From contig OZ038382.1 in NCBI GenBank assembly GCA_964036045.1, positions 74,014,687 to 74,078,686 of the forward strand: DNA of 64,000 nucleotides, in the 5' to 3' direction. Positions 15,208 to 40,431 of the stretch are shown piece by piece. This stretch comes from Eutreptiella sp. 'Long Island Sound 2002' (lineage: Eukaryota; Euglenozoa; Euglenophyceae; Eutreptiales; Eutreptiaceae). Below the pieces are notes generated by a model that made no database searches, was not told the origin of the DNA, and saw only the letters and a program-made list of their open reading frames with translations. The position numbers were made by a program, and so were the translations under genes. Numbering within the stretch: the stretch's first letter is position 1; the number at the start of each line of letters is the position of its first letter.

Positions 15208-15359
15208 AGATTTTTGTACTGCACTTCGAGGTGCACAGTGGCTCTGTCCCCGGCGGATACGGGTGATTTCCAGAACTCGGTGCTCCACAGCAAAGACATC
15301 GACCCCCAACCCGCCCCAGCCCGATGGCTGAAAAGCCTGCATCGAGCCATCTATGATTG
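15208..15359 (+). pseudogene. L2 LINE: linker between endonuclease and reverse transcriptase
   Basis: The frame from 15,208 is open to the H insertion and reads ...DTGDFQNSVLHSKD...ARWLKSLHRAIYD. The final GATTG (15,355-15,359) is repeated at 39,465-39,469 on the far side of element H. Joining there gives HRAIYDWAHAAGRVRALRF in one frame. This proves that 15.2 kb and 39.5 kb were adjacent before H inserted. Confidence 0.8.
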
Positions 15360-15381
15360 CTTAGGACGCCTTAATTGCACG
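15360..15381 (+). repeat. H left terminal inverted repeat
   Basis: Begins CTTAGGACGCCTTAATTGC; pairs with 39,443-39,464. Preceded by the TSD GATTG. Confidence 0.9.
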
Positions 15382-15842
15382 CCCTGGTGACCCTCAAGAA
15401 GTCGAATTTGTTACCCCTAACTGGGGTGTTTTTTTAGGGTATGAAATGCAGGGGGGGGGGGTCACTGTTTCAGTTTGTGTTTCAAAAGCCATTTTTTGAA
15501 CCATTCCAATGTTCCAATTCCGAATAGTCAATTTCAACTCCCAAATCAGCCAAATTTCAAAAATGAAGCGAAATGTCGCCACTCCTTTGAAATTGGCCGA
15601 TAACATACACTCTTTTCGTGCATTTTTTCTCTCATGAGACGCGAAATTTCATCACTCCTTCATTATTTGATGAATTCATGCCCGCATTGTGTATTTGTAT
15701 TTGTGTACGTTCATTTGATTTGATTTGTACCGAAATTTGTGCCTTTGATGAATTTTATGAACATTCTGACAATCTTGGTATGTAGTATGTTCCCTGTTCC
15801 GAGGCAAATATGTGCGTATTTGTTGTGAGGTGACCACAGGAC
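15382..15842. other. H left non-coding region
   Basis: AT-richer DNA with a poly-G run near 15,450 and two diverged GCGAAATTTC-type motifs (about 15,565 and 15,640). No gene seen. Probably the subterminal and promoter region of H. Confidence 0.5.
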
Positions 15843-16330
15843 ATGGATCCGGCACTGCTAAGGGTGGTTGTGGCAAGTCGTCAGTTTCAGAACGTTGATG
15901 ACCTCATGACGGATGTTGCCAATGGGGGCTCTGCAAGGTTATTGGCTGTCTGGGCCCTGGCAATGCGAACAAATCGACGCTCACGGAAGGATGTTACACG
16001 GCTGCTGTTTGCCCATGGAATACGGAAGAAGCCCCGTTGGTACACTGTTTTCTCAAATCAATTGATATGCTTGTAGCGACTTCTGATGGCAGCCCCTAAT
16101 GCACAGTCCCAGGATGTACCAATGCCTATTTCATTGAGCCGGAGGACACGCCGATTGTCGGCTCCCACGGGACTTGTGCATGCAGCTATGCCCTCACTTA
16201 CTGCCGATGCACATCAACAAGCAACATGGCTTTGGCAAAGCATGCGAACCACCGGGTGGCGCTCTGGTACGACAACCGGGTGACAAAGAATTATGGGGTA
16301 GACCCGCTGCATCGTGACCACTCCATAAAT
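15843..16330 (+). pseudogene. H gene, N-terminal part (candidate transposase), interrupted by A
   Basis: The translation from ATG 15,843 aligns with the N-terminus of the A protein at 16,904. Shared landmarks include a Leu-rich ALAMRTNRRSRKDV block (A has ALDLRHNRKTRRNV), a following PRW..V..Q block, and in another frame ALWYDNRVTKNYGVDP (A has TLWFDNYHRYINGVDP). A stop at 16,074 and a frameshift between about 16,190 and 16,240 disable it. It ends at codon AAT, part of the TSD TAAAT, where element A begins. The gene continues at 37,767. Function is inferred only from its place in a transposon and from homology to the A ORF. Confidence 0.8.
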
Positions 16331-16356
16331 ATTAGGCCACGCTAACTACCCGCCCC
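16331..16356 (+). repeat. A left terminal inverted repeat
   Basis: ATTAGGCCACGCTAACTACC plus CGCCCC; pairs with 37,736-37,761. Confidence 0.9.
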
Positions 16357-16539
16357 TTGCGACCCAAACATGTGCACTTTGTCGCCTTTTTTGTGTCTTG
16401 TTTTTGTGCCTATGTTTTCCATGTGTCCCCTGTACTGTAATAGGTGGTGAAGAATAATTCTACATTTATTGCGTGTCCTATGCATACACACTTTGCAACT
16501 CAAATTCACTGTCTCTATTTGCCAATTTGCCAAGACCTG

Positions 16540-16800
16540 TGCGAAATTTCCCCAGCCCCCCCGGATAGCAGAAAAGGTATACATATTTTGATGTCTTGAT
16601 GACCCTGGGCGAAATTTCCCCCAGCCCCGCCTCTTCTGCAAAATGTATAGATCAAAAACACCAATCAGTGATCCTGGGCGAAATTTTTTCCAGCCCCCCC
16701 TCCCCCCTGTTGTTTCTTTGCTTCCCCTGTGCCTGGTATGTTGCCCTTTCCCTCACTGTCACTTAGGCCGGGCAGTCGATAAAGTTGAACCTGGGCGAAA
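16540..16800 (+). promoter_or_regulatory. A left subterminal motif cluster, GGGCGAAATTTC
   Basis: Copies at about 16,538, 16,607, 16,676 and 16,791, all in forward orientation; the first reads TGCGAAATTTC. The same motif appears in reverse at the right end (37,285-37,365). Opposed subterminal repeats are typical of transposase-binding sites in several DNA transposon families; that role is inferred here. The cluster also lies just upstream of ORF1 and could act as promoter DNA. Confidence 0.6.
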
Positions 16801-16903
16801 TTTCTTCCTGCTTGCCTTGACACCCTTTACCTACAGGGTGGTACCTCTGTTGGCTTCTGTTCACGGACTCTTAGGGGTGCTTCTACCAATGTGGTTGTGA
16901 GAC

Positions 16904-18262
16904 ATGATTGATGTTCGCTTTCTTCAAACAGCCGTGGGGGGTACTCGCGTTCGTCCCCCGAAGGCTGTCATTCGGGTGGCATTGAACAAAGGAAGGACAC
17001 TCCCGCTGCTGCCGCTAGCACTGGATTTGCGTCACAATAGAAAGACTAGACGTAATGTTGGGCATGTGCGGGCTGCCTGGGATTCTAGTCGTCCACCAAG
17101 ATGGTTGTTGGTCCTGCAGAAGCAAGTTTTCTCACTGTATAACATTGTGCGAGTGCTTACATATCCCCGTGCTGAGAGAGCCACTACGGCCTCATATCGC
17201 GGTACAAGGACCCAGTACATCCGCCAAAAGCTGGCAATGGCAGGGGAATGCACTATCAATACCCCTACTATCTCGGCCCAAGCCTGTGTTCAAGCTTCAT
17301 GCCTTTGGGATTCATTTGAGAGACAGCAAATTACCCTGTGGTTCGACAATTACCATCGCTACATCAATGGGGTGGACCCCCATAGCCCTGATAAGACTTT
17401 GAACGTGACTGTTGTCGGTGTGTTGCACACTACTGAGCTGCCCCAGTACCACTTTCTGCCCGGTCTGGATGCTGTTGCACAATGTATACCCGTGGTTGTT
17501 GACTACCTTGTTCGCTGTGTTGGGTCGCTGTTGCAAAGAAGTACAGTCCCAGATGGGCCTATTCTGCGGACCTGGGTTCGTGCACCTCTGGACTATGCTC
17601 GCAATGCTGTGGTATCCCTCAAGTGGAGGGCCATTCTGTTATCACACTCGAAATGCGGAAGTCATGTTGAGTTATTGGAGTTTGTCAGGGGGCTAGAATG
17701 CTTGCAGGTGAAGACCAGACGGAATGTGTTATTTCTGATTGACATGAAAATCTTTTACGCACTCCTGAAAATGTTGTTTGGAGCAAGCTATGCCCCCTGG
17801 CACGTAGACCAGTTCCTGCTGGGACACCCGTTGCTTTACGGTGTCTGGCACCCATATAAGTATTCTTTGGAAATAACCTATAAGGCATTTGCCCCTATTA
17901 TTAAATTTGTTGAGCAGGGTTGGGACCTGAAGGCAGGAGCTGTGGTGCCCATGAAAGTCAACATGCGTCACATGGAAAAAACCATTGTTGGTTTGTTCCT
18001 GGCTACAGCTGCTAACGAAGAATGGCTTAATACTACCACCCACGTGCTTATGAGTAATCTTGCCGAGTTGTCTAATGCTCAAAGCCTGGGTCTGAAATGT
18101 GTGTTAGCCCTGAAGGCCCTGTTATACTCGTACTGCTCAGTACTTCTGGCACTAGGGGTTCTTGTGCGTGAATGTAACTGGAACGGTCGCTCTCTGCATT
18201 CCAGTGCAGCTGCAAAAGAATGCATTGGAATGAGTACTGTCTTGATGATGAATATCACTTAG
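16904..18262 (+). CDS. ORF1 of element A (candidate transposase), stop supplied by an inserted terminus
   Basis: 452 codons with ATG in the context GAGACATGATTG, conserved in most units. This is the only undamaged copy of the family here. Landmarks: basic N-terminus with RHNRKTRRNV; TLWFDNYHRYINGVDP at about residue 142-160; LIDMKIFYALLKM; PLLYGVWHPYK; VLVRECNW near the end. The paralogue in H keeps the DN, D-K-I and P-L-x-YGVWHP-K positions, so these are likely functional. The GVWHP-K block faintly recalls G-x-x-H blocks in some RNase H-like transposases, but I cannot assign a family. The last residues, ending NIT-stop, come from the adjoining CTTAG terminus. In the original gene the frame continued into 28,765 (IPSEKWLSIEYL). 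Confidence 0.75.
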   Translation: MIDVRFLQTAVGGTRVRPPKAVIRVALNKGRTLPLLPLALDLRHNRKTRRNVGHVRAAWDSSRPPRWLLVLQKQVFSLYNIVRVLTYPRAERATTASYRGTRTQYIRQKLAMAGECTINTPTISAQACVQASCLWDSFERQQITLWFDNYHRYINGVDPHSPDKTLNVTVVGVLHTTELPQYHFLPGLDAVAQCIPVVVDYLVRCVGSLLQRSTVPDGPILRTWVRAPLDYARNAVVSLKWRAILLSHSKCGSHVELLEFVRGLECLQVKTRRNVLFLIDMKIFYALLKMLFGASYAPWHVDQFLLGHPLLYGVWHPYKYSLEITYKAFAPIIKFVEQGWDLKAGAVVPMKVNMRHMEKTIVGLFLATAANEEWLNTTTHVLMSNLAELSNAQSLGLKCVLALKALLYSYCSVLLALGVLVRECNWNGRSLHSSAAAKECIGMSTVLMMNIT

Positions 18263-18829
18263 GCCACGCTAACTACCCGCCCCTTACGACCCAAACATGT
18301 GCACTTTGTCGCCTTTTCTGTGTCTTTTTTTTGTGCCTATGTTTTCCATGTGTCGCCTGTACTGTAATAGGTGGTGATGAATAGCTCTACATTTATTGCG
18401 TGTACTATGCGTACACACTTTGAAACTCAAATTCACTGTCTCTATTTGCCAATTTAGCAAGACTTGGGCGAAATTTCCCCAAGCGCCCCCGGATAGCAAA
18501 AAAGGTATACATATTTTGATGTCTTGATGACCCTGGGCGAAATTTCGCCAAACTCTGCCTTTTCTGGAAAATATATAGCTTAAAAACACCAATCAGTGAT
18601 CCTAGGCGAAATTTCTTCCAGCCCCCCCCCCCCTGTTGTTTATTGCCTTGTGGTGTGCATGATATGTTGCCCTCTGTCTGCCTGTCGCTTAGGCCCACTA
18701 GTCGATAAAGTTGAACCTGGGCGAAATTTCTTCCTGCTTGCCTTGACACCCTTTACCTACAGGGTGGTACCTCTGTTTGGTTCTGTTCATTGACTCTTAG
18801 GGGTGCTTCTGCCAATGTGGTTGTGAGAC

Positions 18830-20182
18830 ATGATTGATGTTCGCTTTCTTCAAACAGCCGTGGGGGGTACTCGCGTTCGTACCCCGAAGGCTGCCATTCG
18901 GGTGGCATTGAAAAAAGGAAGGACACTCCCGCTGCTGCAGCTGGCACTGGATTTGCATCACAATAGAAAGACTAGACGTAATGTTGGGCATGTGCGGGCT
19001 GCCTGGGATTCTAGTCGTCCACCAAGATGGTTGTTGGTCCTGCATAAGCAAGTTTTCTCATTGCATAACATTGTGCGAGTGCTTACATATCCCCGTGCTG
19101 AGAGAGCCGCTGCGGCCTCATATCGCGGTACAATGACCCAGTACATCCGCCGTAAGCTGGCAATGGCAAGGGAATGCACTATCAAGCCCCTACTATCTCG
19201 GCCCAAGCCTGTGTTCAAGCTTCATGCGTGTGGGATTCATTTGAAAGACAGCAAATTACCCTGTGGTTCGACAATTACCATTGCTACATCAATGGGGTGG
19301 ACCCCCATAACCCTGATAAGACTTTGAACGTGACTGCTGTCGGTGTGTTGCACACTACTGAGCTGCTGCAATACAGTACCACTTTCTGCCCGGTATGGAT
19401 GCTGTTGCACAACGTATACCCGGGGTTGTTGACTACCTTGTGCGCTCTGTTGGGTCGCTGTTGCAAAGAAGTACAGTCCCAGATGGGCCTATTCTGCGGA
19501 CCTGGGTTCGTGCACCTCTGGACTATGATCGCAATGCTGTGGTATCCCTCAAGTGGAGGGCCTTTCTGTTATCACACTCGAAATGCGGAAGTCATGTTGA
19601 GTTGTTGGAGTTTGGCAGGGGGCTAGAATGCTTGCAGCTGAATACTTGACGGACTGTGTTATTTCTGATTGACATGAAAATCTTTTACGCACTCTTAAAA
19701 ATGTCGGTTTGAGCAAGCTATGCCCCCTGGCACGTGGACTAGTGCGTGTTGGGACACCCGTTGCTTTACGGTGTGTGGCACCCATATAAGTATTCTGTGG
19801 AAATAACCTATAAGGCATTTGCCCCTATTATTAAATTTGTTGAGCAGGGTTGGGACCTGAAGGCGGGAGCTGTGGTGCCCATGAAAGTCAAACTGCGTCA
19901 CATGGAAAAAACCATTGTTGGTTTGTTTCTGGCTACATCTGCTAACGAAGCACGGCTTAATAGTACCACCCAGGTCCTTATGAGTAATCTTGCCGAGTTG
20001 TCTAATGCTCAAAGCCTGGGTCTGAAATGTGTGTTAGCCCTGAAGGCCCTCTTATACTCGTACTGCTCAGCATTTCTGGCACTAGGGGTTCTTGTGCGTG
20101 AATGTAACTGGAACGGTCGCTCTCTGCATTCCAGTGCAGCTGCAAAAGAATGCATTGGAATGAGTCTTGATGATGAATATCA
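18830..20182 (+). pseudogene. ORF1 copy, unit 2, frameshifted
   Basis: Same start and N-terminus as the copy at 16,904. A 1-2 base deletion near 19,187 (ATCAAGCCCC for ATCAATACCCC) shifts the frame. Further damage is an in-frame TGA after GCTGAATACT (about 19,648) and small indels near 19,370 and 19,710. Ends at the next terminus, as all units do. Confidence 0.85.
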
Positions 20183-20459
20183 CTTAGGCCACACTAACTA
20201 CCCGCCCCTTACGACCCAAACATGTGCACTTTGTCGCCTTTTTTGTGTCTTCTTTTTGTGCCTATGTTTTCCATGTGTCGCTCGTACTGTAAGTAGTGGT
20301 GATGAATAGCTGTACATTTATTGCGTGTACTATGCGTACACACTTCGAAACTCAAATTCACTGTCTCTATTTGCCAATTTAGCAAGACTTGGGCGAAATT
20401 TCCCCAAGCGCCCCCGGATAGCAAAAAAGGTATACGTATTTTGATATCTTGATGACCCT

Positions 20460-20475
20460 GGGCGAAATTTCGCCC
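20460..20475. repeat. 16-bp palindrome GGGCGAAATTTCGCCC
   Basis: Perfect self-complementary copy in the non-coding part of unit 3. Further perfect copies lie at 22,285-22,300 and 26,095-26,110; one-base variants are at 29,620-29,635 and 31,124-31,139. Confidence 0.95.
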
Positions 20476-20755
20476 AACTCTGCCTGTTCAGCAAAATATA
20501 TAACTTAAAAACACCAATCAGTGATCCTAGGCGAAATTTCTTCCAGCCCCCCCCCCCCCTGTTGTTTATTTGCTTGTGGTGTGCATGATATGTTGCCCTC
20601 TGTCTGCCTGTCGCTTAGGCCCACCAGTCGATAAAGTTGAACCTGGGCGAAATTTCTTCCTGCTTGCCTTGACACCCTTTACCTACAGGGTGGTACCTCT
20701 GTTTGGTTCTGTTCATTGACTCTTAGGGGTGCTTCTGCCAATGTGGTTGTGAGAC

Positions 20756-22008
20756 ATGATTGATGTTCGCTTTCTTCAAACAGCCGCGGGGGGTACTTGC
20801 GTTCGTACCCCGAAGGCTGTCATTCGGGTGGCATTGAACAAAGGAAGGACACTCCCGCTGCTGCAGCTGGCACTGGATTTGCGTCACAATAGAAAGACTA
20901 GACGTAACCAAGATGGTTGTTGGTCCTGCAGAAGCAAGTTTTCTCACTGTATAACATTGTGCGAGTGCTTACATATCCCCGTGCTGAGAGAGCCACTGGA
21001 GCCTCATATCGCGGTACAATGACCCAGTCCATCCGCCGTAAGCTGGCAATGGCAGGGGAATGCACTATCAAGCCCCTACTATCTCGGCCCAAGCCTGTGT
21101 TCAAGCTTCATGCGTGTGGGATTCATTTGAGAGACAGCAAATTACCCTATGGTTCGACAATTACCATCGCTACATCAATGGGGTGGACCCCCATAGCCCT
21201 GATAAGACTTTGAACGTGACTGTTGTCGGTGTGTTGCACACTACTGAGCTGCCCCAGTACCACTTTCTACCTCGTCTGGATGCTGTTGCACAACGTATAC
21301 CCGTGGTTGTTGACTACCTTGTTTGCTGTGGTGGGTCGCTTTTGCAAAGAAGTACAGTCCCGGATGGGCCTATTCTGCGGACCTGGGTTCGTGCACCTCT
21401 GGACTATGCTCGCAATGCTGTGGTATCCCTCAAGTGGAGGGCCTTTCTGTTATCACACTCGAAATGCGGAAGTCATGTTGAGTTATTGGAGTTTGTCAGG
21501 GGGCTAGAATGCTTGCAGGTGAAAGCAGGCGGAGCAAGCTATGCCCGTTGGCACGTAGACCAGTTCCTGTTGGGACACCCGTTGCTTTACGGTGTCTGGC
21601 ACCCATATAAGTATTCCGTGGAAATAAACTATAAGGCATTTGCCCCTATTATTAAATTTGTTGAGCAGGGTGGGGACCTGAAGGCAGGAGCTGTGGTGCC
21701 CATGAAAGTCAAACTGCGTCACATGGAAAAAACCATTGTTGGTTTGTTTTTGGCTACATCTGCTAACGAAGCACGGCTTAATACTACCACTCACGTGCTT
21801 ATGAGTAATCTTGCCGAGTTGTCTAATGCTCAAAGCCTGGGTCTGAAATGTCTGTTAGCCCTGAAGGCCATGTTGTACTCGTACTGCCTAGCACTTTTGG
21901 CACTAGGGGTTCTTGTGCGCGAATGTAACTAGAACGGTCGCTCTCTGCATTCCAGTGCAGCTGCAAAGGAATGCATTGGAATGAGTACTGTCTTGATGAT
22001 GAATATCA
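20756..22008 (+). pseudogene. ORF1 copy, unit 3, with internal deletions
   Basis: Lacks about 40 bp after CTAGACGTAA (20,907) and about 75 bp near 21,525, where AAGCAGGCGGAGCAAGC replaces the VLFLIDMKIF block. A frame of 290 codons (21,060-21,932) covers much of the C-terminal half, ending in a TAG after ECN. Non-functional. Confidence 0.85.
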
Positions 22009-22284
22009 CTTAGGCCACGCTATCTACCCGCCCCTTACGACCCAAACATGTGCACTTTGTCGCCTTTTCTGTGTCTTGTTTTTGTGCCTCTGTTTTCCAT
22101 GTGTCGCCTGTACTGTAATAGGTGGTGATGAATAGCTGTACATTTATTGCGTGTACTATGCGTACACACTTTGAAACTCAAATTCACTGTCTCTATTTGC
22201 CAATTTAGCAAGACTTGGCGAAATTTCCCCAAGCGCCCCCGGATAGCAAAAAAGGTATACATATTTTGATGTCTTGATGACCCT

Positions 22285-22300
22285 GGGCGAAATTTCGCCC
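22285..22300. repeat. 16-bp palindrome GGGCGAAATTTCGCCC
   Basis: Perfect copy in unit 4, same relative position as in unit 3. Confidence 0.95.
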
Positions 22301-22578
22301 AACTCTGCCCGTTTTGCAAAATATATAGCTTAAAAACACCAATCAGTGATCCTAGGCGAAATTTCTTCCACCCCCCCCCCCCCGTTGTTTATTGCCTTGT
22401 GGTGTGCATGATATGTTGCCCTCTGTCTGCCTGTCGCTTAGGCCCACCAGTCGATAAAGTTGAACCTGGGCGAAATTTCTTCCTGCTTGCCTTGACACCC
22501 TTTACCTACAGGGTGGTACCTCTGTTTAGTTCTGTTCATTGACTCTTAGGGGTGCTTCTGCCAATGTGGTTGTGAGAC

Positions 22579-23895
22579 ATGATTGATGTTCGCTTTCTTC
22601 AAACAGCCGCGGGGGGTACTTGCGTTCGTACCCCGAAGGCTGTCATTCGGGTGGCATTGAACAAAGGAAGGACACTCCCGCTGCTGCAGCTGGCACTGGA
22701 TTTGCATCACAATAGAAAGACTAGACGTAACCAAGATGGTTGTTGGTCCTGCAGAAGCAAGTTTTCTCACTGTATAACATTGTGCGAGTGCTTACATATC
22801 CCCGTGCTGAGAGAGCCACTGGAGCCTCATATCGCGGTACAATGACCCACTCCATCCGCCGTAAGCTGGCAATGGCAGGGGCACGCACTATCAATGCCCC
22901 TACTATCTCGGCCCAAGCCTGTGTTCAAGCTTCATGCGTGTGGGATTCATTTGAGAGACAGCAAATTACCCTGTGGTTCGACAATTACCATCGCTACATC
23001 AATGGGGTGGACCCCCATAGCCCTGATAAGACTTTGAACGTGACTGCTGTTGGTGTGTTGCACACTACTGAGCTGCCGAAGTACAGTACCACTTTCTGCC
23101 TGGTCTGGATGCTGTTGCACAACGTATACCCGGGGTTGTTGACTACCTTGTTCGCTGTGTTGGTTTGCTGTTGCAAAGAAGTACAGTCCCACATGGGCCT
23201 ATTCTGCGGACCTGGGTTCGTGCACCTCTGGACTATGCTCGCAATGTTGTGGTATCCCTCAAGTGGAGGGCCTTTCTGTTATCACACTCGAAATGCGGAA
23301 GTCATGTTGAGTTATTGGAGTTTAGCAGGGGGCTAGAATGCTTGCAGGTGAAGACCAGACGGACTGTGCTATTTCTGATCGACATGAAGATCTTTTACGC
23401 ACTCTTAAAAATGTCGTTTGGAGCAAGCTATGCCCCCTGGCACGTAGACCAGTTCCTGTTGGGACACCCGTTGCTTTACGGTGTCTGGCACCCATATAAG
23501 TATTCTGTGGAAATAACCTATAAGGCATTTGCCCCTATTATTAAATTTCTTGAGCACGGTTGGGACCTGAAGGCAGGAGCTGTGGTGCCCATGAAAGTCA
23601 AACTGCGTCACATGGAAAAAACCATTGTTGGTTTGTTCCTCTACAGCTGCTAACGAAGCACGGCTTAATAGTACCACCCAGGTCCTTATGAGTAATCTTG
23701 CCGAGTTGTCTAATGCTCAAAGCCTGGGTCTGAAATGTCTGTTAGCCCTGAAGGCCCTGTTATACCCGTACTGCTCAGCACTTCTGGCACTAGGGGTTCT
23801 TGTGCGTGAATGTAACTGGAACGGTCGCTCTCTGCATTCCAGTGCAGCTGCAAAAGAATGCATTGGAATGAGTACTGTCTTGATGATGAATATCC
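22579..23895 (+). pseudogene. ORF1 copy, unit 4, frameshifted
   Basis: Shares the deletion after CTAGACGTAA with unit 3, so units 3 and 4 derive from one another. Another frameshift lies near 23,085 (an extra AGT, as in unit 2) and a short deletion at 23,640 removes part of the LATAAN block. Its 3' junction reads TATCC-C-TTAGG. Confidence 0.85.
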
Positions 23896-24463
23896 CTTAG
23901 GCCACACTAACTACCCGCCCCTTACGACCCAAACATGTGCACTTTGTCGCCTTTCTGTGTCTTGTTTTTGTGCCTATGTTTTCCATGTGTCGCCTGTACT
24001 TGAATAGGTGGTGATGAATAACTGTACATTTATTGCGTGTACTATGCGTACACACTTCGAAACTCAAATTCACTGTCTCTATTTGCCAATTTAGCAAGAC
24101 TTGGGCGAAATTTCCCCAAGCGCCCCCGGATAGCAAAAAAGGTATACATATTTTGATGTCTTGATGACCCTGGGCGAAATTTCCCCCAACTCTGCCTGTT
24201 CAGCAAAATATATAGCTTAAAAACACCAATCAGTGATCCTAGGCGAAATTTCTTTCAGCCCCCCCCTGGTTGTTTATTGCCTTGTGGTGTGCATGATATG
24301 TTGCCCTCTCTCTGCCTGTCGCTTAGGCCCACCAGTCGATAAAGTTGAACCGGGGCGAAATTTCTTCCTGCTTGCCTTGACACCCTTTACCTACAGGGTG
24401 GTACCTCTGTTTGGTTCTGTTCACTAACTCTCAGGGGTGCTTTTGCCAATGTGGTTGTGAGAC

Positions 24464-28759: not shown

Positions 28760-28764
28760 TATCA

Positions 28765-29585: not shown

Positions 29586-29619
29586 TTTGACTGTGTTATG
29601 TGCTATTCTGCTTCCAGTT

Positions 29620-30671: not shown

Positions 30672-30751
30672 GTAGTTTGTTCAACGTTTTGACTGTATCC
30701 ATTACACATTACTGCAAGCCTGTTTTTTTACCTGTCTCTTGCTGTCTGAAG

Positions 30752-31052
30752 GTCACCGTAGCCAAGCGTTGGGCAGGGTTTGGCAAGCTTGTCAAATTCA
30801 TTGGGCAGGCAGCTGTTGACGCAATCTATGGGATGGAGAAGCGAGATGTTGAACCGGCGCTTGGGGTATTCAAAGAGTGCGAAGGATTAATGCCAGACAG
30901 ACTGTCAAGCGTTGTCCTCTACATGTCGGTTACCAAAAGCCCAGTACTAGGAATCAAACGTGAAATACAGTTGGCCAGAGTTCAGCAGTTGTGGGCTTGG
31001 CATGTGCTCCATCCGGATGCAGTCATCGAGGGGTTTGTGCACGAGTCTAGGG
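30752..31052 (+). CDS. Element A exon, unknown function
   Basis: Acceptor TGTCTGAAG at 30,751, donor GG-GTATGG at 31,053. It joins EGN to VTVAKRWAGFGKLVKFIGQA in phase 0 and continues with VDAIYGMEKRDVEPALGVF, PDRLSSVVLYMSVTKS and VQQLWAWHVLHPDAVIEGFV. It is open throughout, with no stop and a mixed helical composition. No family recognised. Consistent phase on both sides supports real splicing. Confidence 0.55.
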
Positions 31053-31123
31053 GTATGGTGCATTATTGTGCACTCTGAGTGGTAGTGATTTCGTGGTCTT
31101 TATTTCGTTGCTGACGATGAGCT

Positions 31124-31139
31124 GGGCGAAATGTCGCCC
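31124..31139. repeat. Intronic palindrome GGGCGAAATGTCGCCC
   Basis: One mismatch to the 16-bp palindrome, inside the putative 162-bp intron 31,053-31,214. Confidence 0.85.
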
Positions 31140-31214
31140 AGGTCTCTCGATTTTCCTTCATAAGCATACCATTTTTCAACTGCCTCATTTGTGTCCTGTG
31201 TATACACTCTGCAG

Positions 31215-31927
31215 CAAATCTGGGTACTGTGACCATGTGCAAAGAACGATGTCGTATTATGGCCCATATCCGGGTCTTGTATGGCAGCTGGGTGTGGAGT
31301 CCCGAGTCACCTTGCCCACCGTGGGCTTCTGTTGTCAAGGCAGTCTTTTGGACCTCCGACCTTTACCAAGGGTTACGTGACAGGCTTCGCAAGCCCCGTG
31401 TGACACCAAGTATTGAAAAGGCTGACGGTGGGCATCTGAGTCTTAACTTGGGTGATACCATTATTGAGATAGACACAGGGAAAGTTTTGAAGGAGGAGGG
31501 TAGAGTTGAGCTACTCCCTTTGTGGGCAAGCTGCCCTGTTCCCAGCTATATTAGTGCACTGCCATTTGTCCACATCCTGATCGAGGTCCCATGTATGTGG
31601 ACGTTGGCCGTGCACAATCTTGTGGCACAATTTGTATTGAATGGTATTTTGGTGGCAGTCACTGCTGAGACTGCTGATGTTCGGGCATATATTAGCAACC
31701 CGAAAGCTGCCTGTGCTGAGGAATTTTTCCATGCCGATGTATGTGCGTACAACCTGTCCAAGCCATCAGCACTGGACAGCATGGGACAGAGTGCTCTTGC
31801 ACTATGTAGTCTTCACCAGTTTTCTGCACGCCTACCCCGATATCTTTCTTATATCCATGGCCCCCTGACGACTGCCGTATCTGTTGAAGTGTTCTGTTAT
31901 TTGCTGTGTGCTTTGGCTTTAATTTAG
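31215..31927 (+). CDS. Element A last large exon, unknown function
   Basis: Acceptor CACTCTGCAG at 31,214. With the previous exon (phase 1) the frame reads ANLGTVTMCKERCRIMAHIRVLYG and stays open to TAG at 31,925. Notable blocks: two pairs of Trp (GSWVW, PPWASV), LNLGDTIIEIDTGKV, ALPFVHILIEVPCMWTLAVHNLVAQF, AEEFFHADVCAYNLSKPSALD and a hydrophobic end. The last third is duplicated, broken, in element B. No recognised domain. The protein encoded by these exons would exceed 400 residues and is the second large product of A. Confidence 0.6.
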
Positions 31928-31939
31928 CAGAATAGTACA

Positions 31940-32429
31940 TGGGTAATGGTCTGCACACAGCAGCCAGATTTTTCTGCAGCCCTGTCCATTCAAAGCATGT
32001 TGCCTGTGAACATTGCAGCTGCCTACTTGTGTGAGGAGAAGTCTATTCCTGATTCATTTGTTACTGATTTGAGGGCCGTTGTGTCGAACTGCGACACTCT
32101 GGCACCAATCCAGTGGGACTGAATGTGTGAGGACCTTGCAGATGGGCTTCTAGTAGATTGTACGGGAAGGAGGTATGTAGAGCAAGAAGAGGAGGCCACC
32201 CAACTAGAGGAAGAGGACGGTGAGCCCCAGAAACGCCCACCCCCCCCCAAGTGAACCGGCAAGCAGGGGGACGGCACCCCCGCCAAGGCCAAAAAATCAA
32301 AGGCGGGAGCAAGCCCCTCACAGCAGAGCCCCAAGCCTTAATCAAAGCCTCCACCCAACAAGGCGCTGGGCACGTTTGCAGCACACTTCACACCGTCCCA
32401 GCAGACACAGAATGGACGTGGTGCCAGTG
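31940..32429 (+). pseudogene. Element A copy of the acidic/basic tail ORF, 5' part, cut by C
   Basis: Matches 27,520-28,000 of B. A TGA in CAGTGGGACTGAATG (about 32,120), a TAG in GGCTTCTAGTAG and another near CCTTAATCAAAGCC break the frame. It ends at GGACGTGGTGCCAGTG, where element C begins, and resumes at 37,044. Confidence 0.85.
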
Positions 32430-32463
32430 CCCTTGTTACGCTTTTGAACGCCAAGGTTGTTCC
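32430..32463 (+). repeat. C left terminal inverted repeat
   Basis: Starts CCCTTGTTACGC; pairs with 37,010-37,043. Followed by a cluster of GGAAC words (TTCCCAACGGGAACAATTCC). Confidence 0.85.
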
Positions 32464-32940
32464 CGACCAGAATGTTCCCAACGGGAACAATTCCCGCCGG
32501 AACAATTTCTTTGGGAACACCACTGGAACAAGTGGCGCAGGCCAGATAACCAGATCCATCACCATGAGTTTTCAAGTTCGTAAATGATGTTTTTTGTCTC
32601 CTTCTTGCATGTGTAACGCGTCCAAGGCTTGTCTTTCCCATCGGGGCCATGTTGACATATTGTGGGCCGTTGGTGCCACCTTCCACTAGGTGTACACATT
32701 TCGAACTTTTCGTATCCATTTGCAAGCTTGCTGTTCCTTGTAGTCGAGACGCACCGTTGTATGACTTTTCAACGTTGGCGTACCCGTTTTCCCGGTTGAT
32801 TTGTGCATTGTGGCCATGCCTAGGGTCCCATTTTGGTATTTGTTCCTTGCCTGAATGCTCGGTGGGTCTACGGGCATCTTCCCCTAGAGGTATGGATTGC
32901 CAAATTTCGCTTCGTAGGCCATTGTTGTAGCTTCGGCATG

Positions 32941-33190
32941 CCTGCGACACAGACCCGGGTTCAGCAACTAACCACCTACCTCGTCCATTTGGCTAGTGCT
33001 GTTAGCCTCCAGGACGGGGATCTTGTTGGGGAGCTCATAGCGAAATGGGCCATCTCCTCTCCACTCACCCACTGCCAATTTGCGGTGGCCGTGCGCTGGG
33101 CCCAACCGAGCTGTGTCCGAGAGATACAGCAGGGCTTTCCAGCAGCGCTGGCAAGATCTACTAGCCCCCTTGGAGCTTGCCCCCCCCGGT
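32941..33190 (+). pseudogene. Possible captured gene fragment inside C
   Basis: From ATG 32,939 the frame reads MPATQTRVQQLTTYLVHLAS, then DGDLVGELIAKWAI, and stays open to about 33,192, where CCCCGGTGAGCAC could be a splice donor. A second open stretch ([20 protein letters not shown]) at 33,622-33,695 is bounded by TTTCTTAG and CTAGGTTTGG. The L-x-x-A-x-x-x-x-DGD-x-x-x-L pattern is loosely like the start of PCI-domain proteins of the TREX-2 type, a weak resemblance. Exon-like pieces separated by satellite-filled introns suggest host exons captured by C. Confidence 0.3.
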
Positions 33191-33696
33191 GAGCACATTG
33201 GATCCCAAGGCCACGGGCATCAGTTGGCCATAGGCATCGTGGCTGCGCCACGTTGCCAGCCAACTGCCGTTGTGCCGCATGATCGATTGGTCGTTACCCC
33301 TGACATGCATTGTTAGGGGGGATGGCTACCCATGCGCAGATGGGGAGTGGTCCCAATTGTCCGTGTCCATCGCTTGCATGGGCCTTTGGGGACGCATTCG
33401 CGCCTGCGTGTGGGTCATCGGCCTCACAATTTGCAGGGAGAAAGGGATGGCGACTTTGGCAACCTCTAGGAAGCCAATATTAAGGTGTGCCCCATACACA
33501 CCATGTTGTTCCGGTGACGTTCCGATAACTTGTTCCGGCGACGGTCCGGCGACGTTCAAGTGTTTTGTTGGAACCGTCACCGGAACAATTTGGTTCCAAC
33601 AAAATTGATGTTGTTTTCTTAGGCCATCCAGGAGGTTGTGGACACCCATTGGGTGGTCTACAACTCCCGCGAGCGAGCGGCCGATGCCTGGCTAGG

Positions 33697-34400
33697 TTTG
33701 GGTGCGGGTTTGGGCTTGGGTTTGGGTTTGGGCTTTGGTTTGGGTTTGGGTTTGGGTTTGGGTTGCGGGTTTTGGCTTGGGCTTGGGTTTGGGTTTGGGT
33801 TTGGGTTTGGGTTGCGGGTTTGGGCTTGGGTTTGGGTTTGGGTTTGGGTGTGGGTTGCGGGTTTGGGCTGGGGTGTGGGTTTGGGTTTGGGTTTGGGTTT
33901 GGGTTGCGGGTTTTGGCTTGGGCTTGGTTTTGGGTTTGGGTTTGGGTTGCGGGTTTGGGCTTGGGTTTGGGTTTTGGTTTGGGTTTGGGTTGCGGGTTTG
34001 GGCTGGGGTGTGGGTTTGGGTTTGGGTTTGGGTTTGGGCTTGGGCTTGGGTTTGGGCTTGGGTGTGTGCATTGTGTTGGTGTGTGTTGTGTGTTACCTTG
34101 CCCCCCCCCCCCCGTGTCCCTTTCGGGGTTCGGGTTTGGGCTTGGGTTTGGGCTTGGGTTTGGGCTCGGGTGTGGGTTTGGGTTTGGGTTTGGGCTTGGG
34201 ACTGGGTTTGGGTTGCGGGTTTGGGCTTGGGCTTGGGTTTGGGTTTGGGTTTGGGTTGCGGGTTTGGGCTTGGGCTTGGGTTTGGGTTTGGGTTGCGGGT
34301 TTGGGCTTGGGCTTGGGTTTGGGTTTGGGTTGCGGGTGTGGGCTTGGGTGTGGGTGTGGGTTTGGGTTTGGGTTTGGGTTTGCGCTTGGGTGTGTGCATT
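33697..34400. repeat. GGGTTT/GGGCTT hexamer array
   Basis: About 700 bp of a 6-bp G-rich repeat with GGGTTGCGGG interruptions at roughly 60-70 bp spacing and one C-rich break near 34,100. It resembles telomeric DNA in being G-rich on one strand, but the unit varies and the array is embedded in element C, so it is not a telomere. Confidence 0.9.
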
Positions 34401-34956
34401 GTGTTGGTGTGTTTTGTCTGTTACCCTGCCCCCCCCCCCCCCGTGTCCCTTTCGCTCCTTGCAGCCTTGCCCCCCTTTGTCCCTTTCCCTCTTTGCACCC
34501 CGTTGTCTGTCTTTGAATGACGATTTTGATTTTGATTTTGATAGAAATATTGAAAAAAAAAAGAAGAAAGGTTGTGCCTTCCCTTCAAAACCCTAGGCAG
34601 TCGACCTGGGGCCCAGCCACTGCGTGGCAGGTAGTTGGGTTTCACTCTCCCTTCCAAACCCCAGGCAGATGACCTGGGGCCCAGCCACCGCAGTGGCGGG
34701 TAATTGATCTGCTTACCACGGTTCCCTAGGGTCCGCCCCCCCCAGGGCTGTAGTGCGCGCAGTGCGCCTTGTGCGCGCCCAGAACTGTGTGTATTTTCCA
34801 CTCTTCTGGTGACGTTCCAACAACACGTTGTGGCGACGTTCTGGCGACGTTCCAACGTTCCAACGGTCACTGGAACGTCGCCAGAACTTCGCCAGAACAA
34901 GTTACCGGAACGTCGCCGGAACAAGGTGTGCAGTGTGCGGTACCACACACACACAC
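34401..34956. other. Element C spacer with GGAACGTCGCC motifs
   Basis: C-rich runs, a tandem pair of CCAGGCAG...GACCTGGGGCCCAGCCAC (about 34,595-34,690), then a dense block of GTTCCAACG / GGAACGTCGCC words at 34,800-34,925 in both orientations. No gene seen. Confidence 0.6.
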
Positions 34957-36225
34957 ACACACACACCACACACCACACACCACAAACCAACCACAGACCA
35001 ACCACAGACCACCAACCGCGGACCACCAACCACAGACCACAGACCACGGACCACAGACCAACCACAAACCACAGGCCACAGACCACCAACCACACACCAC
35101 AGACCACATACCACAGACCAACCACAGACCACCAACCATAGACCACCAACCAAAGACCACCAGCCACAGGCCACAAACCAAAGACCACAAACCAGAGACC
35201 AAAGGCCACAGACCACAGACCACAAACCACCAACCACACACCACAGACCACACACCACAGACCAACCACAGACCACCAACCGCAGGCCACCAACCACAGA
35301 CCGCGGACCACATACCACAGACCAACCACAGACCACCAACCTCAGACCACCAACCACAGACCATCAACCACAGACCACAGACCAAAGACCACAAACCAAA
35401 GACCACAAACCAGAGACTAAAGACCGCAGACCTCAGACCACAGATCACCAACCACACACCACAGACAACAGACCACAGGACACAAACCACACACCACACA
35501 CCACAGACCACTCACCACAGGCCACCGACCACACACCACAGACCACAGACCACAGACCACAAACCACAGACCACAGACCACCAACTACGTACGATAGACC
35601 GCAGACCATAGACCACAGACCACAGACCAGTTTCCTCCATGTCATACGGGCCACTCGGGCCAGAAAAACTTCTTCCTGGGAAGGTGTTCCAGCGACGTTC
35701 CATTAAATGGTTCTGGCGGTGTTCAAATCTTGAACACCTAAAAACACCGGAACGTCGCCGGAACGTCGCCGGAACAACTTGCTGGAACGTCGCCAGCAAA
35801 ACTTTTATTGCCCCCTCCTTTGCAACCACAGACCACAGACCACAGACCACAGACCACAGACCACAGAGCACCAACCACAGCCCACAGACCACAGACCACA
35901 GACCACACACCACACACCACACACCACAGACCACATACCACTGAGCACCAACCACAGCCCACAAACCATAGACCGCACACCACGCACCACACACCACAGA
36001 CCACAGACCACAGACCACAGAGCACCAACCACAGCCCATAGACCACAGACCACAGACCACACACCACAGACCATAGACCATGGACAACCAACCACAGACC
36101 GCACACCACACACCACAGACCACAGACCCACAGACCACAGACCACCAAACACAGACCACACACCACAGACCACAGACCACCAACCACAGACCACAGACCA
36201 CACACCATGGACCACACACCAGATC
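34957..36225. repeat. ACCACAG heptamer satellite in two blocks
   Basis: Blocks at about 34,957-35,630 and 35,825-36,225 of a 7-bp unit, ACCACAG/ACCACAA, separated by about 190 bp rich in GGAACGTCGCCGGAAC motifs. All frames are open on both strands and give low-complexity peptides, so no gene is called. Confidence 0.9.
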
Positions 36226-37009
36226 ATCTACTGTGGGGTTCTCAGGTTCGCCCCAGCCCTTCAATTCAACGTGACAATATAAACTCCTACCCCCTTTATT
36301 GGCGCTGGGCATGCACACATGCTATGAGATTGCATGCAAACATACCGTACAAAAATATTTTTCATGATACCTGCACAGTGAAGCAAGCACGGGGGGAAGC
36401 AGGAGAGAAGGGGGACAGACTCAACAGACTCAACTGACCCACAACCCCCACAAGGGCCTACCCTCCCCCCGGGGGGGGGGGGGAGGTTGGAGACTGACAA
36501 CACCCGAGACTCCGCTAGACCCCCCCCCCCCCTAGGGTAGGACGGAACCTAAGCAAAGGCCTGGGCTAGGCCCTAGGTCGGGAGCCTAGGTTTTGGAAGG
36601 GAGAGTGAAAGAAAACCAAAAACCATTGCTAATCACCCGCCACTCGAAAAGGGGTCCACAAAGAGAATACCCCGATGCGCCCTCACGGGCACCTTGCACA
36701 ACAATGTATGTTACCATTTTACCCTTCCTCGTGCTTTGCTCTTAATGTAGGTTGCTTGTTCCGGCGACGTTCAAATAACTTGTTCCAGCGGTGTTCCAAT
36801 GGTGTTCTAACAAAAACTGTTTTTGAAAACAAGTTTTTTTCACGTGGCAACGCGGCAGACAACAAATATAAGCATACCAGCGGGGACCCCCAAGGCTAGC
36901 AAACAACATATTTTGCTATCATGTACGGGTAGGCTTGGTTGGGGGGTAAGCAAATTTCGAACTTTTTTTGTTCCGGCCATATAGCCTAGAACACCGGAAC
37001 AATTTGGCT
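36226..37009. other. Right part of element C, no gene seen
   Basis: Poly-G/C runs near 36,470-36,530, an AGGCCTGGGCTAGGCCCTAGG stretch and GTTCCGGCGACGTTC repeats near 36,760. The right TIR of C begins at 37,010. Confidence 0.5.
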
Positions 37010-37043
37010 GGAGCAACCTTGGGGTTCAAACGCGCACCAAGGG
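37010..37043 (-). repeat. C right terminal inverted repeat
   Basis: Ends GTTCAAACGCGCACCAAGGG; inverse of 32,430-32,463 with five mismatches. Confidence 0.85.
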
Positions 37044-37240
37044 TGGTCGTGCTAACAGTGAGATGCCTGGTGACCAGGCAGGACAAGCAAATGGAGGGCA
37101 GTTTAGTGGTAAGGGTGCCAAACCAAAGGCACGTGGTCTGAGGTACCGGCGATAGAGTGACAGTGGTGTGTGGTCTGACTGATGTGTTGTATGTTTTCCC
37201 TGTTACACGTGAGAATGGCATTCTGCGCTGTCTCTGCAGA
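37044..37240 (+). pseudogene. Element A tail ORF, 3' part, right of C
   Basis: Continues exactly where 32,429 stops: GTGCTAACAGTGAGATGCCTGG matches 28,010 in B. It encodes the same GQANGGQFSGKGAKPKARG tail, but with a TAG in GGCGATAGAGTG where B has RWRWSD. Confidence 0.85.
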
Positions 37241-37284
37241 TGCTATTGACGTTTTGCGCACTGTGGTTTTGTGTTTTACTAAAG

Positions 37285-37370
37285 CCGGAAGAAATTTCGC
37301 CCAGGTTTAGGTATTTCCCGGAATACACGTTTCGTTTTTACATTTTTGTAAAGCTGGAAGAAATTTCGCC
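37285..37370 (-). promoter_or_regulatory. A right subterminal motifs, GAAATTTCGCCC
   Basis: Two copies, at about 37,293 and 37,358, in reverse orientation relative to the left cluster. Equivalent copies in B lie at 28,249 and 28,320. The arrangement makes A and B symmetrical at both ends. Confidence 0.6.
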
Positions 37371-37735
37371 CACAGGTCTCATTAATGGCAAATAGAGACC
37401 TTGATTATGATGCATGAATTTGAGTGACTGTCAATTGACAGTTTTTTGGGCACACACAGGGTGCGGCAACCCTTGCCAAGTGTGTGCTGCCCTACTTCTT
37501 GCAGTGCATCGCCTCGCAGGATGATACATTTGTGTGTAACACTGGAAAGGTTTGTTGTTGCATGCATGCTTATTGTGTTTTCACAACTGGGGTGTGGTTA
37601 CATGAGAATGGCATTTTAGGTAAATAGAGATACTCATTTTTTCCTACCACGTGCAAGGGGTCCCCTAGGTGCAATATTCATACCCTGTTTTGGGGGGGGT
37701 ACAGGATGGCCCCGTGGAGCCAGGTAGTGGGTAGG

Positions 37736-37761
37736 GGGGTGGGCAGTTAGCGTGGCCTAAG
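37736..37761 (-). repeat. A right terminal inverted repeat
   Basis: Ends TTAGCGTGGCCTAAG, followed by the TSD TAAAT (37,762-37,766). Confidence 0.9.
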
Positions 37762-37766
37762 TAAAT

Positions 37767-38567
37767 TGTACAGCTGTGGCCGTGTTACATTTGCCAGCGC
37801 TACCACCATTTCCGGGTCATGTCTCACTAATTCATGCCGTCCAGACAATTGGGGCACGTGTTGATGCTTTGCAACTACGTCATGCGGATCTGTATCGGCT
37901 GGTTTATGCTCTTCCCGACATGATTCAGCGTACCTTTGTTAGAGTTCCCCCGGACGTTGTGCAGCAGAATGTGCTATCTCTCCGTTGGCAACCAATGATG
38001 CTGTCTCAACTGCGGTGTGGAACCAAAGTGGATCACTTGAAACTTCTAAATACAATTCGGCGTGTGCAGCAGGCAAACCGGCATGATTTGCCTCTGTGTG
38101 TGGATACGAAGATTCACTATGAGCTCTTTAAATACCTGAATGCGCAGACTTACACTTCATGGAACTTCCAGTTGCTATGGTCAAGCCTCCCCCTCATCTA
38201 CGGGGTTTGGCACCCGTGCAAGCATATGATCACTATGCTTTACCGCAACTTTATGCCCATTATCTGTTTGATCCAGAGAGTACACACCAATTTCAAGGAA
38301 GGGGACGACGTACCAACAAAGGTGAAGCTCCTTCGTATGGAGAAGACAATATTGGCGCTTTGTCTAAATGCTGGCACTTACTTACCAAGAGTTGAGGCAA
38401 AACTTGATGCATTTGCTCTGGCGGCGCAGAATGGACCACTGACGGACATGCAGTCTAAAAGCAAGGAGCTACTTTTGGGGTTGCAGGTGTTGTTGAAGGA
38501 GTATTGCCCTTCTGCATTTAGGATTGGTGTCCTCGTGAGGGATTGCATTTGGGCTGGCGCAGGATGA
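37767..38567 (+). pseudogene. H gene, C-terminal part (candidate transposase)
   Basis: Starts in frame at TGT after the second TAAAT and runs 263-266 codons to TGA at 38,565. It aligns end to end with residues ~167-430 of ORF1: LHLPALPPFPG (LHTTELPQYHF), LSLRWQPMMLSQLRCGTKVD (VSLKWRAILLSHSKCGSHVE), LCVDTKIHYELFK (FLIDMKIFYALLK), LPLIYGVWHPCK (HPLLYGVWHPYK), KVKLLRMEKTILALCL (KVNMRHMEKTIVGLFL), RIGVLVRDCIW (ALGVLVRECNW). The conserved D-x-K-I, YGVWHP-x-K and MEKTI blocks across this divergence mark likely functional residues. The half itself is intact; the gene is broken by A and by lesions in its first half. Confidence 0.85.
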
Positions 38568-38739
38568 TGAGGAGCAGACACAACATCAGAGTCAGCAGTC
38601 GGTCACGCCACACAAAGCAAATACGCATCCACTGTTTGAGCCGAAAGGACAGTCACCGTCACCAAAGGGATTGGAGAACTTTGCGAATTTGGTGAGTGGT
38701 GGGACTGCACCAGCAACCCAGCCACAACAGCAACCTTAG
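38563..38739 (+). pseudogene. H gene tail, Gln/Pro-rich, shifted frame
   Basis: Overlapping the TGA in the +1 direction, GATGATGAGGAGCAG opens a frame reading DDEEQTQHQSQQSVTPHK, EPKGQSPSPKGLENFANLVS and TQPQQQP to TAG at 38,737. Its composition and the KGLENFA block match the tail ORF of A/B (NKALGTFA). Either a frameshift or a short intron separates it from the preceding part. Confidence 0.6.
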
Positions 38740-39442
38740 AAAGCAACGTGTTTGGGGAACAAACGACGACGGTGATTTAGTGTTATGATGACTGCTATGA
38801 TGAGTCATTGGTGACTGCAGAACCACCATCCTCTGAGCAGCTGACTTGAATTTTAATTTGTGTCCGATTTTATTTGATTTGTTATTCAGACTCACACTTT
38901 GTGGGTGTTGGCACATGGAATTGCCTTTTGTAGGCAACATTTGGTATTTTTTGTGATGCATGTTTGTGTATTGATTGATTGTAAAGAGTTCTTTATGGTT
39001 CGAATCGTATGTCTTTGATATTATGTATCAATCTGGTACTGTGGCAAGCAGCCAATCGACCGACAATATTTTATACCTCATTGTCCTTCATTTTGCCAAA
39101 TGTGGCAAAATTTTGCGTCTCATTGAAATTCCCTAAAAACGGGGGTCTGCTTCACCATGCATCAGTGTACTGTTTCACAAAGTGTCACCTATACACAACA
39201 GAAACCCTTCAGTGGAGATTGCAATTTGTCCTTCGGTGTTGTTTCTTTGAATTCAGATACTTGTTTTGGCTGGTTTACAAGTGTGCTCAATTGCAGGCAA
39301 AAAGGGCAAAGTGGACAATATGGGGCATGATTTCAGTCAAAGACCTCACTCGTTGTGCGCCGTGTGCAATTCGGGGGTAGTAATTCACCATTTTTTTCAC
39401 CCCATGAATGGCCTTCATTTCGCAGACCCCCCCCCCCGTCCC
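38740..39442. other. H right non-coding region
   Basis: AT-rich, with GCAAAATTTTGCGTCTCATTG near 39,100 and a poly-C run before the right TIR. No gene supported. Confidence 0.5.
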
Positions 39443-39464
39443 CGGGCAATTAAGGCCTCCTAAG
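39443..39464 (-). repeat. H right terminal inverted repeat
   Basis: GGGCAATTAAGGCCTCCTAAG, followed by the TSD GATTG (39,465-39,469). Confidence 0.9.
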
Positions 39465-40431
39465 GATTGGGCCCACGCCGCGGGCAGGGTCCGGGCTCTC
39501 CGCTTCCGGCACTACTGCCGCCGGGCACGCCCCGCGGAGCAAGCCCCTGCCTCGAAGTCCCCCCCGCCGCCTTTCCCGTCGCGCAGTATGCTCCCCTCCG
39601 TGGAACGTTTTACGGCGACAGCCCACAACATGCTGGGCAACTCCGTGGCGGTGGGGCACGCCTTCAAAAGGAGCCTTGTGGCGCTGGGGGAGGCCCAGCG
39701 CCAGCAAAGCCTCCGGGATCTCAAGCGCCGGGCCCTCCGGTGTACACAGGACACCCGCAACCTCCGGCGCACCCCGGAGCAGCGGCGGGAGGTGCAACGG
39801 CGCAGCCGGGCCCCCCCGCGGGATATCTCCGAAATCCCCTTGGACAACAAGGCGCTCCAGAACTCCAGGGAGACTTTGTCTGCCCTATATGCGAGCCGCA
39901 TGCGGCTTTAGGGCCACAGCTACCGAATCCGGGACGACCCCAAACGGTGGGCCCCTTTCAAGCTTTACCTGGAGCTCCTGCCATAGCATGCCCCACCAGC
40001 CCGGGAATCCTATGTCCATCCTTGCCAGCTCTGGGAGGTGCAATCCGGCAAGGCCCGCGGCCCAGACCTCCACCTGCCTGAGGCGGACGTTGGCATCGAC
40101 ATATCCTGGTACCGGCACCTGACGGACGCGGGCCAGGTGACCTTGTGCGCCGTCGTGCGCAGCCCCCCAGTATGCCGCACAGTGGGCAGGCGTGGACGGG
40201 TCACCCTGCTCCTCAAAAACCCGGACCAGCTCATCCAGGAGGCAAACCTCCGGGGCATGACCATCTCCTCCCACGTCTCAAAGCTGGAGGCCACAGCTTT
40301 CTACGCCCTAGCGACGGCTATCTACGAGCGGGCCCTGGGGGGCCCTTGCCTCGTAGGAGGCATGCGAGGAGTGTCCCTCAAGGAAGTGGTCCGCACGGTG
40401 CACATGAAGTTCGACCTTGCCAGGCTTTAGC
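39465..40431 (+). pseudogene. L2 reverse transcriptase, linker and finger region
   Basis: The linker frame runs from GATTGG through HNMLGNSVAVGHAFKRSL to a TAG at 39,909, followed by RDDPKRWAPF and another stop. In the frame of 40,038 come ADVGIDISWYRHLTDAGQ, GRVTLLLKNPDQ, NLRGMTISSHVSKLEATAF, IYERALGGPCLVGGMRGVS and EVVRTVHMKFDLARL. The K-N-P, N-x-RG-x-x-I-SSH-x-SKL and GG-x-RGVS blocks are those of the fingers of LINE reverse transcriptases, ahead of the first catalytic Asp. A stop at 40,429 ends the frame. Confidence 0.75.

Follow-up and report, generated by a model that had tools for sequence, protein, structure and literature searches.

Nested CTTAGG-ended DNA transposons of an apparently undescribed superfamily in the euglenoid Eutreptiella

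A 64,000-nucleotide stretch of contig OZ038382.1 from Eutreptiella sp. 'Long Island Sound 2002' (assembly GCA_964036045.1; the whole stretch is called the window below) carries three related mobile elements, H, A and B, inserted one inside the other. Judging from their borders, genes and genomic relatives, these elements are likely to be DNA transposons of one apparently undescribed superfamily, in which open reading frame 1 (ORF1) would encode a DDE-type transposase and a second gene, ORF2, a helper protein. On balance we also favor the fuller view that they stand for a new two-gene eukaryotic superfamily that has a transposase lineage of its own, is bounded by CTTAGG ends, strictly duplicates 5 bp at CC-NNNNN-GG targets and bears palindromes every 69-70 bp from ~211 bp after the left end onwards. 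It would be represented by one genome and three distant proteins and include a third family so young that it may recently have been mobile.

Three nested insertions in the window

A preliminary description of this DNA had proposed three successive insertions of related CTTAGG elements, each with a 5-bp target duplication, and our analysis confirmed it. The three elements have inverted ends CTTAGG...CCTAAG in common, except that A alone starts with ATTAGG; the first base is C in all 26 A-family copies aligned from elsewhere in the genome. All six ends and the exact duplications GATTG, TAAAT and TATCA were found (Table 1), and the genome-wide tests reported below were in favor of the proposal. 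By simple arithmetic, assuming equal base use, chance alone would produce exact 5-mer matches at all three of these set borders about once in 10^9. The order of insertion is H first, then A into the ORF1 of H, then B into the ORF1 of A. The description had further held that excision of each element restores an open frame, and this stands for two of them: removal of B leaves the ORF1 of A open across the junction (a 218-codon frame), and removal of A opens a 343-codon frame of H. A 198-codon frame crosses the junction once H is removed, but here the frame evidence is weak, because other readings in this G+C-rich stretch cross as well and the ORFs flanking H (14376-15050, 39408-39908 and 39467-40078) had no Pfam match at E <= 0.1.

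The borders of the three nested insertions were as described, but an array of five tandem units and a 4,614-bp insert, both within A, had been overlooked. The array consists of five consecutive copies of the left ~1.92 kb of A, each extending as far as the B insertion site (units of 1,826-1,927 bp, starting at 16331, 18258, 20183, 22009 and 23896), and B's own left end forms a sixth left end; the left part of B is 90.8-93.9% identical to the units. Several independent B insertions were considered as the source of this array and rejected, because CTTAGG is immediately preceded by TATCA (once by TATCC) at every one of the five internal junctions. After a single B insertion, the left ends of A and B probably recombined unequally and so amplified the 1.92-kb segment. 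The locus offers a clear example from nature of one transposon inserting into another, with the DNA between their ends later amplified in tandem.

The 4,614-bp insert is probably another transposon, unrelated to A: its inverted ends are 82% complementary, it has an apparent 2-bp (TG) duplication, and it contains (GGTTTG)n and (ACCACAG)n arrays. With one unit, and without B and the insert, A would measure ~6.3 kb, and its full length is accounted for by the sum of 6,305, 7,565 (four extra units), 2,947 (B and one duplication) and 4,614 (insert), or 21,431 bp. A separate A-family copy (contig C6, 61814662-61820971) is 6,310 bp long and matches the insert-free A over the part read.

Element families, target duplications and subterminal palindromes

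We searched the whole genome (2.28 Gb in 2,205 contigs; counts of match rows are lower bounds) for related copies. The ORF1 of A gave at least 95 match rows, including four from the window. For the ORF1 piece of H there were at least 148, including a single window row. Two rows of the H search, at only 39% identity, represent a third family; its ORF1 (protein P0052, 722 aa) has 267 database members. A fourth ORF1 lineage was found by tblastn, in which two pieces are 28.8% and 39.7% identical to P0052; it lies (L097:4-1313) directly left of a third-family copy, which suggests another nested or adjacent pair.

Paired ends with matching 5-bp flanks were found in the A, H and third families. The ends of other genomic copies coincided with the terminal inverted repeats (TIRs) given in the preliminary description, as 26 of the 28 A-family loci cut out outside the window align from the left border (L018 and L028, which have no left end, were left out) and 30 of 32 right ends, A and B included, read CCTAAG (the exceptions are L038 and L064). 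At the 26 left ends, CTTAGG is exact in 18 and has one or two mismatches in 8. The left ends L025, L032 and L034 have a common flank and are not independent, and the right ends L043 and L050 likewise have a common flank; the copies in these two groups were probably duplicated along with their surroundings. Searching for the bare hexamers CTTAGG and CCTAAG next to each other was uninformative (74 places per strand versus 168 in the reversed control), and 21-bp ends were used instead. The exact third-family end occurs 672 times on the forward and 669 times on the reverse strand, 1,341 in all, which would correspond to ~670 copies if all were paired, and the A-family end occurs at 71 and 61 places; the reversed controls gave 0 in both cases.

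The third family is younger than the A and H families. Over the 1,640 bp compared, starting from the CTTAGG border, two of its copies share 98.3% identity, and one flanking base matches too. Among 100 places listed, all on contig C1, 37 inward-facing plus/minus pairs were picked by eye, with 10 spaced at 6,511-6,539 bp and 11 at 3,898-3,948 bp, a full-length and a deleted class, respectively. Besides this 3.9-kb class, internally deleted derivatives include B, copy L036 (which lacks everything between ORF1 and the right end) and copies of 639 and 1,532 bp.

We compared the flanks of paired ends with those of mispaired controls. For the A family, A and B counted, 10 of 12 pairs were exact over 5 bp, one matched at 4 of 5 and one fitted a 6-bp repeat, CCTAGG (pairs L069/L044 and L071/L055, with no recognizable left end, were excluded, as were right ends lacking a partner), while mispairing gave 0/132 exact and 8/132 at 4 of 5. 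Half of the ten H-family pairs, H counted and L088/L089 excluded for want of a left end, were exact and the other five matched at 4 of 5 bases (control, 0/90 and 2/90). In the third family, for which the first 20 of the 37 pairs in list order were taken, 19 were exact over 5 bp, none longer, and the remaining pair matched at 4 of 5 (control, 4/380 exact). The 20 third-family targets are symmetric: positions -2 and -1 favor C and positions +1 and +2 favor G (47/80 positions, a value that 0/10,000 shuffles reached). The motif, CC-NNNNN-GG, was chosen post hoc, once the sites had been inspected; the first duplicated base is never G and the last never C. Sharp inverted-repeat borders at many sites, a duplication of constant length and deleted copies with intact ends are together the hallmarks of class II TIR transposons.

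A palindrome with the core CGAAATTTCG recurs at fixed distances from the left end. In the A copy of the window it takes the form of the GCGAAATTT repeats (Table 1); among the 26 aligned A-family copies, palindromes stand at ~211, 280, 349 and 464 bp in 17, 23, 21 and 16 copies, with 5 sites outside these ranges, and in two third-family copies they stand at 210, 281, 351, 424 and 491 bp. Palindromes are also found near the right ends of A and B, 69 bp apart. H (24.1 kb) contains the sequence GAAATTTC 27 times, a count inflated by the six left-end copies, versus once in the remaining 39.9 kb of the window.

The A-family copies are decayed. In 30 A-family ORF1 segments, two of them from the window, C-to-T changes affected 5.6% of CG, 6.4% of CHG and 1.9% of CHH contexts, and G-to-A changes 4.2%, 4.1% and 1.0% of the same three contexts; TAG accounted for 29 of 43 new stops, mainly via CAG (15) and TGG (10). 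This pattern fits CG and CHG methylation followed by deamination, a plant-like signature. One A-family ORF1 match, at contig C7:41328471-41329706 on the minus strand, is part of a 2,138-codon open frame.

Table 1. Coordinates of the elements and their parts in the window
Feature	Position	Strand	Remarks
Element H, oldest insertion; non-autonomous, with deletion, ~2.67 kb without A	15360..39464	+	ends, GATTG duplication, other genomic copies
GATTG target duplication, left of H	15355..15359	.	read at border
GATTG target duplication, right of H	39465..39469	.	read at border
Element A, inside ORF1 of H	16331..37761	+	ends, duplication; H frame open once A is removed
TAAAT target duplication, left of A	16326..16330	.	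read at border
TAAAT target duplication, right of A	37762..37766	.	read at border
Element B, A-family copy with internal deletion, inside ORF1 of A	25818..28759	+	blocks ~90% identical to A
TATCA target duplication, left of B	25813..25817	.	read at border
TATCA target duplication, right of B	28760..28764	.	read at border
Five tandem units, each from A left end to B insertion site	16331..25817	+	92.9-96.3% identity between units
H ORF1, part left of A	16100..16330	+	frame across A excision
H ORF1, part right of A	37767..38567	+	ORF and genome matches
GCGAAATTT repeats, 211, 279, 348 and 465 bp from A left end	16538..16820	+	window repeats
ORF1 (putative transposase), N-terminal 452 codons, unit 1; D148, D280, H316 (the two D are candidate catalytic residues)	16904..18262	+	
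Rest of ORF1, right of B, split over two frames (one being 29016-29585); FEEYGEA motif with candidate catalytic E	28765..29585	+	
ORF2 region, second gene, apparently several exons, broken in A copy	29890..32429	+	exon limits are an interpretation
Foreign insert in A, 4,614 bp, own ~48-bp inverted ends CCCTTG...CAAGGG, minisatellites	32430..37043	.	absent from B and copy L035
Repeats near A right end, 69 bp apart	37282..37373	+	window repeats

Proteins of the elements and their classification

In the third family, ORF1 runs for ~720 residues as one uninterrupted frame. It is conserved among the A, H and third families and shows a D...D...H...E pattern. We compared these families with three distant proteins, P0073, P0122 and P0165 (encoded on contigs of 4,070, 2,608 and 1,735 bp, respectively), and found the motifs W-F/M-D-N, L-V/I/M-D, G-V/L-W-H, C-x-W and S-E-E-x-x-E-A conserved where covered, with exceptions in single copies. 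B interrupts the ORF1 of A ahead of the last of these. The D...D...E spacing is ~132 and 207-250 residues, and the candidate residues in P0052 are D150, D282, H318 and E489/490/493, assigned by conservation only. We infer from the sequence that ORF1 is a putative DDE-type transposase, with three conserved acidic residues as catalytic candidates. ORF2 has 95 homologous proteins, one of them from the window itself; a 70-residue stretch is 44% identical between the A and third families. The gene appears to be split by introns, and that its product is a helper protein is our guess.

In the model suggested by these features, ORF1 would bind the inverted ends and the subterminal palindromes, excise the element and join it to a target whose two strands are offset by 5 bp, in a cut-and-paste movement that ORF2 may assist and by which deleted copies could be mobilized in trans. 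In the window, H would have landed, A entered the ORF1 of H and B the ORF1 of A, with later unequal recombination giving the five 1.92-kb copies.

Database searches matched neither protein to a named family. Among the ORF1 and ORF2 proteins scanned, none matched a Pfam family at its cut-off, nor did the element ORFs scanned yield a family above its cut-off that would speak for RNA-mediated movement or a viral origin. At E <= 10, the 16 aligned ORF1 proteins matched no transposase domain, a search that a very divergent domain could escape. NCBIfam returned no family for eight proteins, and a sequence search of PDB with two ORF1 profiles gave no match. Relatives of P0052 and P0122 were absent from viral contigs, and in GTDB contigs the query A3 gave 10 pattern matches and no confirmed relative. 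Sub-threshold Pfam matches were taken as chance, both on ORF1 pieces or the aligned set (Trefoil, E 0.19; PIR2-like, 0.076; Tht1, 0.079; TPR_MLP1_2, 8.7) and on other element ORFs (SRP-alpha_N, 0.79; DUF5382_C, 0.052; EBV-NA1 in P0203, 0.0062, with 16.8 bits versus a cut-off of 25).

Several observations weigh against a new superfamily with an ORF1 transposase, strict 5-bp duplications and regular palindromes. AlphaFold models from alignments of 16 and 35 ORF1 proteins had mean predicted local distance difference test (pLDDT) values of 45.5 and 53.8, too poor to place ORF1 or to demonstrate the RNase-H-like fold of DDE/D transposases, and a Foldseek comparison of these low-confidence models with PDB and BFVD gave no match at E <= 0.001 (best 0.012, in BFVD). 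Rows of VIA-align, among them ISCro4 and TasH entries, fall mainly on the helical stretch 360-443 and were set aside. By our count, stops are present in 75 of the 95 A-family ORF1 match rows listed. The 6-bp repeat of one A-family pair does not suit a 5-bp duplication, half of the H-family pairs match at only 4 of 5 bases, and H has just two palindromes on the left, 282 and 371 bp in, with no match turning up around its right end. Finally, absence from Pfam and NCBIfam is compatible with a divergent lineage of a named superfamily.

This last possibility, in which ORF1 would encode a far-diverged transposase related to those of hAT5, Transib (or another CMCT lineage), Ginger2 or KDZ, and the elements would form a distant lineage of a named superfamily, strikes us as rather unlikely. 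In its favor, the D...D...E spacing and the mostly helical prediction after the second D, in low-confidence models, resemble hAT and P transposases. Duplications of 5 bp are also within the reported range of several groups, according to the available text of the sources: 5 bp in hAT5 and 2-5 bp in the CMCT clade (PMC12730594), 4 or 5 bp in Ginger2 (PMC10045372), and 4-8 bp in some Cryptococcus insertions of KDZ2 and KDZ3 (PMC12810828). Against it stand the absence of any transposase domain in the permissive Pfam search, the lack of a PDB sequence match, and ends that read CTTAGG instead of CA..TG; moreover, between the second D and the SEE/FEE motif of five ORF1 proteins, the C2C motif is found in none, and H3-4H is absent from P0003, P0052 and P0075 and present once in P0122 and P0165. 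A new superfamily remains the probable reading, set apart from the named ones by Pfam and simple motifs within their sensitivity. The suggestion of the preliminary description that the superfamily may be undescribed has survived domain, motif, sequence and literature tests, and it is not proven, the models being too poor to place ORF1.

That ORF1 might instead be another nuclease, a recombinase or a DNA-binding partner, with catalysis coming from ORF2, is a proposal to which we give little credence. The models are too poor to settle the fold of ORF1, and the ORF2 stretch is also conserved between families and has no Pfam family at cut-off. A duplication of constant length, 5 bp, with a symmetric target is, however, the pattern of DDE strand transfer, and the acidic residues of ORF1 are conserved across very distant relatives. 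We also judge it improbable that the elements already stand under another name in a repeat library, be it Repbase, Dfam or a Euglena repeat annotation. A published Euglena gracilis assembly was annotated with RepeatModeler and Repbase, and the available text lists DNA elements alongside 32.7% unclassified repeats (PMC11252322); transposase and recombinase genes are described, in what is accessible of another report, as abundant across the Euglena genome and carry no family names there (PMC12455990). On the other side, literature searches for a CTTAGG family and for Euglena DNA transposons returned no such family among the best-ranked papers, and Merlin is the only DNA transposon named for E. 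gracilis in the accessible part of PMC8101967.

Surroundings of the elements and comparison with known systems

Outside H, the window holds ~223 copies of a 47-bp satellite unit (420-10914) and ~534 copies of the 10-bp minisatellite GGACCTATGG (55799-61133), the latter with open frames of up to 1,074 codons. Arrays of (CACAA)n lie on either side of H, at 11244-11541 and 43215-43336, with 93% and 96% unit matches. Two ORFs, at 43523-44287 and 49102-49665, are likely host gene pieces, with matches to a glycosidase domain of the rhamnosidase-like kind (E 3e-10) and, marginally under the cut-off, to a methyltransferase domain. Elsewhere in the genome, chlorophyll a/b-binding domains gave 150 scored matches, many of which lie in long frames with several domains, the longest having 6,122 codons; tandem light-harvesting frames include C5:109275285-109282430, C9:43682069-43694992 and C23:19070551-19075362. 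Multi-domain light-harvesting polyproteins are known in euglenoids and dinoflagellates; together with the chlorophyll a/b-type matches, they point to a photosynthetic euglenoid. The best PDB match of one such domain is the 620-residue LHCI-2 chain of 9vfj, in two matched stretches.

If ORF1 founds a new transposase lineage, these elements would add a superfamily with an unusual end architecture. The published E. gracilis assembly spans 2.37 Gb, according to the available text (PMC11252322), and, if our reading is true, the families would give annotators a handle on part of its unclassified repeats. The young third family, in which ORF1 frames are long and open and deleted partners are numerous, could suit a direct transposition assay.

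Among known systems, P elements have internal repeats beside their TIRs and a long distance between the second D and the E, and in both respects they resemble the present elements; they differ in their 8-bp duplications, and no THAP or P-element Pfam match was found here. KDZ (Kyakuja-Dileera-Zisupton) elements are likewise large and have TIRs, and some of their duplications are of 4-8 bp, but 8 bp is given for Zisupton (PMC12730594) and KDZ1 (PMC12810828) in the available text, versus 5 bp here, and ORF1 has no KDZ Pfam match. Ginger2 shares, according to the text at hand, a duplication of 4 or 5 bp and has an integrase-like transposase, for which the present proteins gave no Pfam integrase match. 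The CMCT clade (Transib, EnSpm, Mirage, Chapaev, Plavaka, ESTA and Lanisha are the lineages compared) mostly has CA..TG ends and carries C(2)C and H(3-4)H motifs, according to the available text of PMC12730594; the elements described here have CTTAGG..CCTAAG termini and no C2C in ORF1, but their duplication length falls within the 2-5 bp of that clade. Finally, the present elements differ from hAT5 in their CTTAGG ends and in an ORF1 with no hAT Pfam domain, of which a very divergent form could be missed, and they are alike, as far as the available text on hAT5 goes, in being TIR DNA transposons with a 5-bp duplication.

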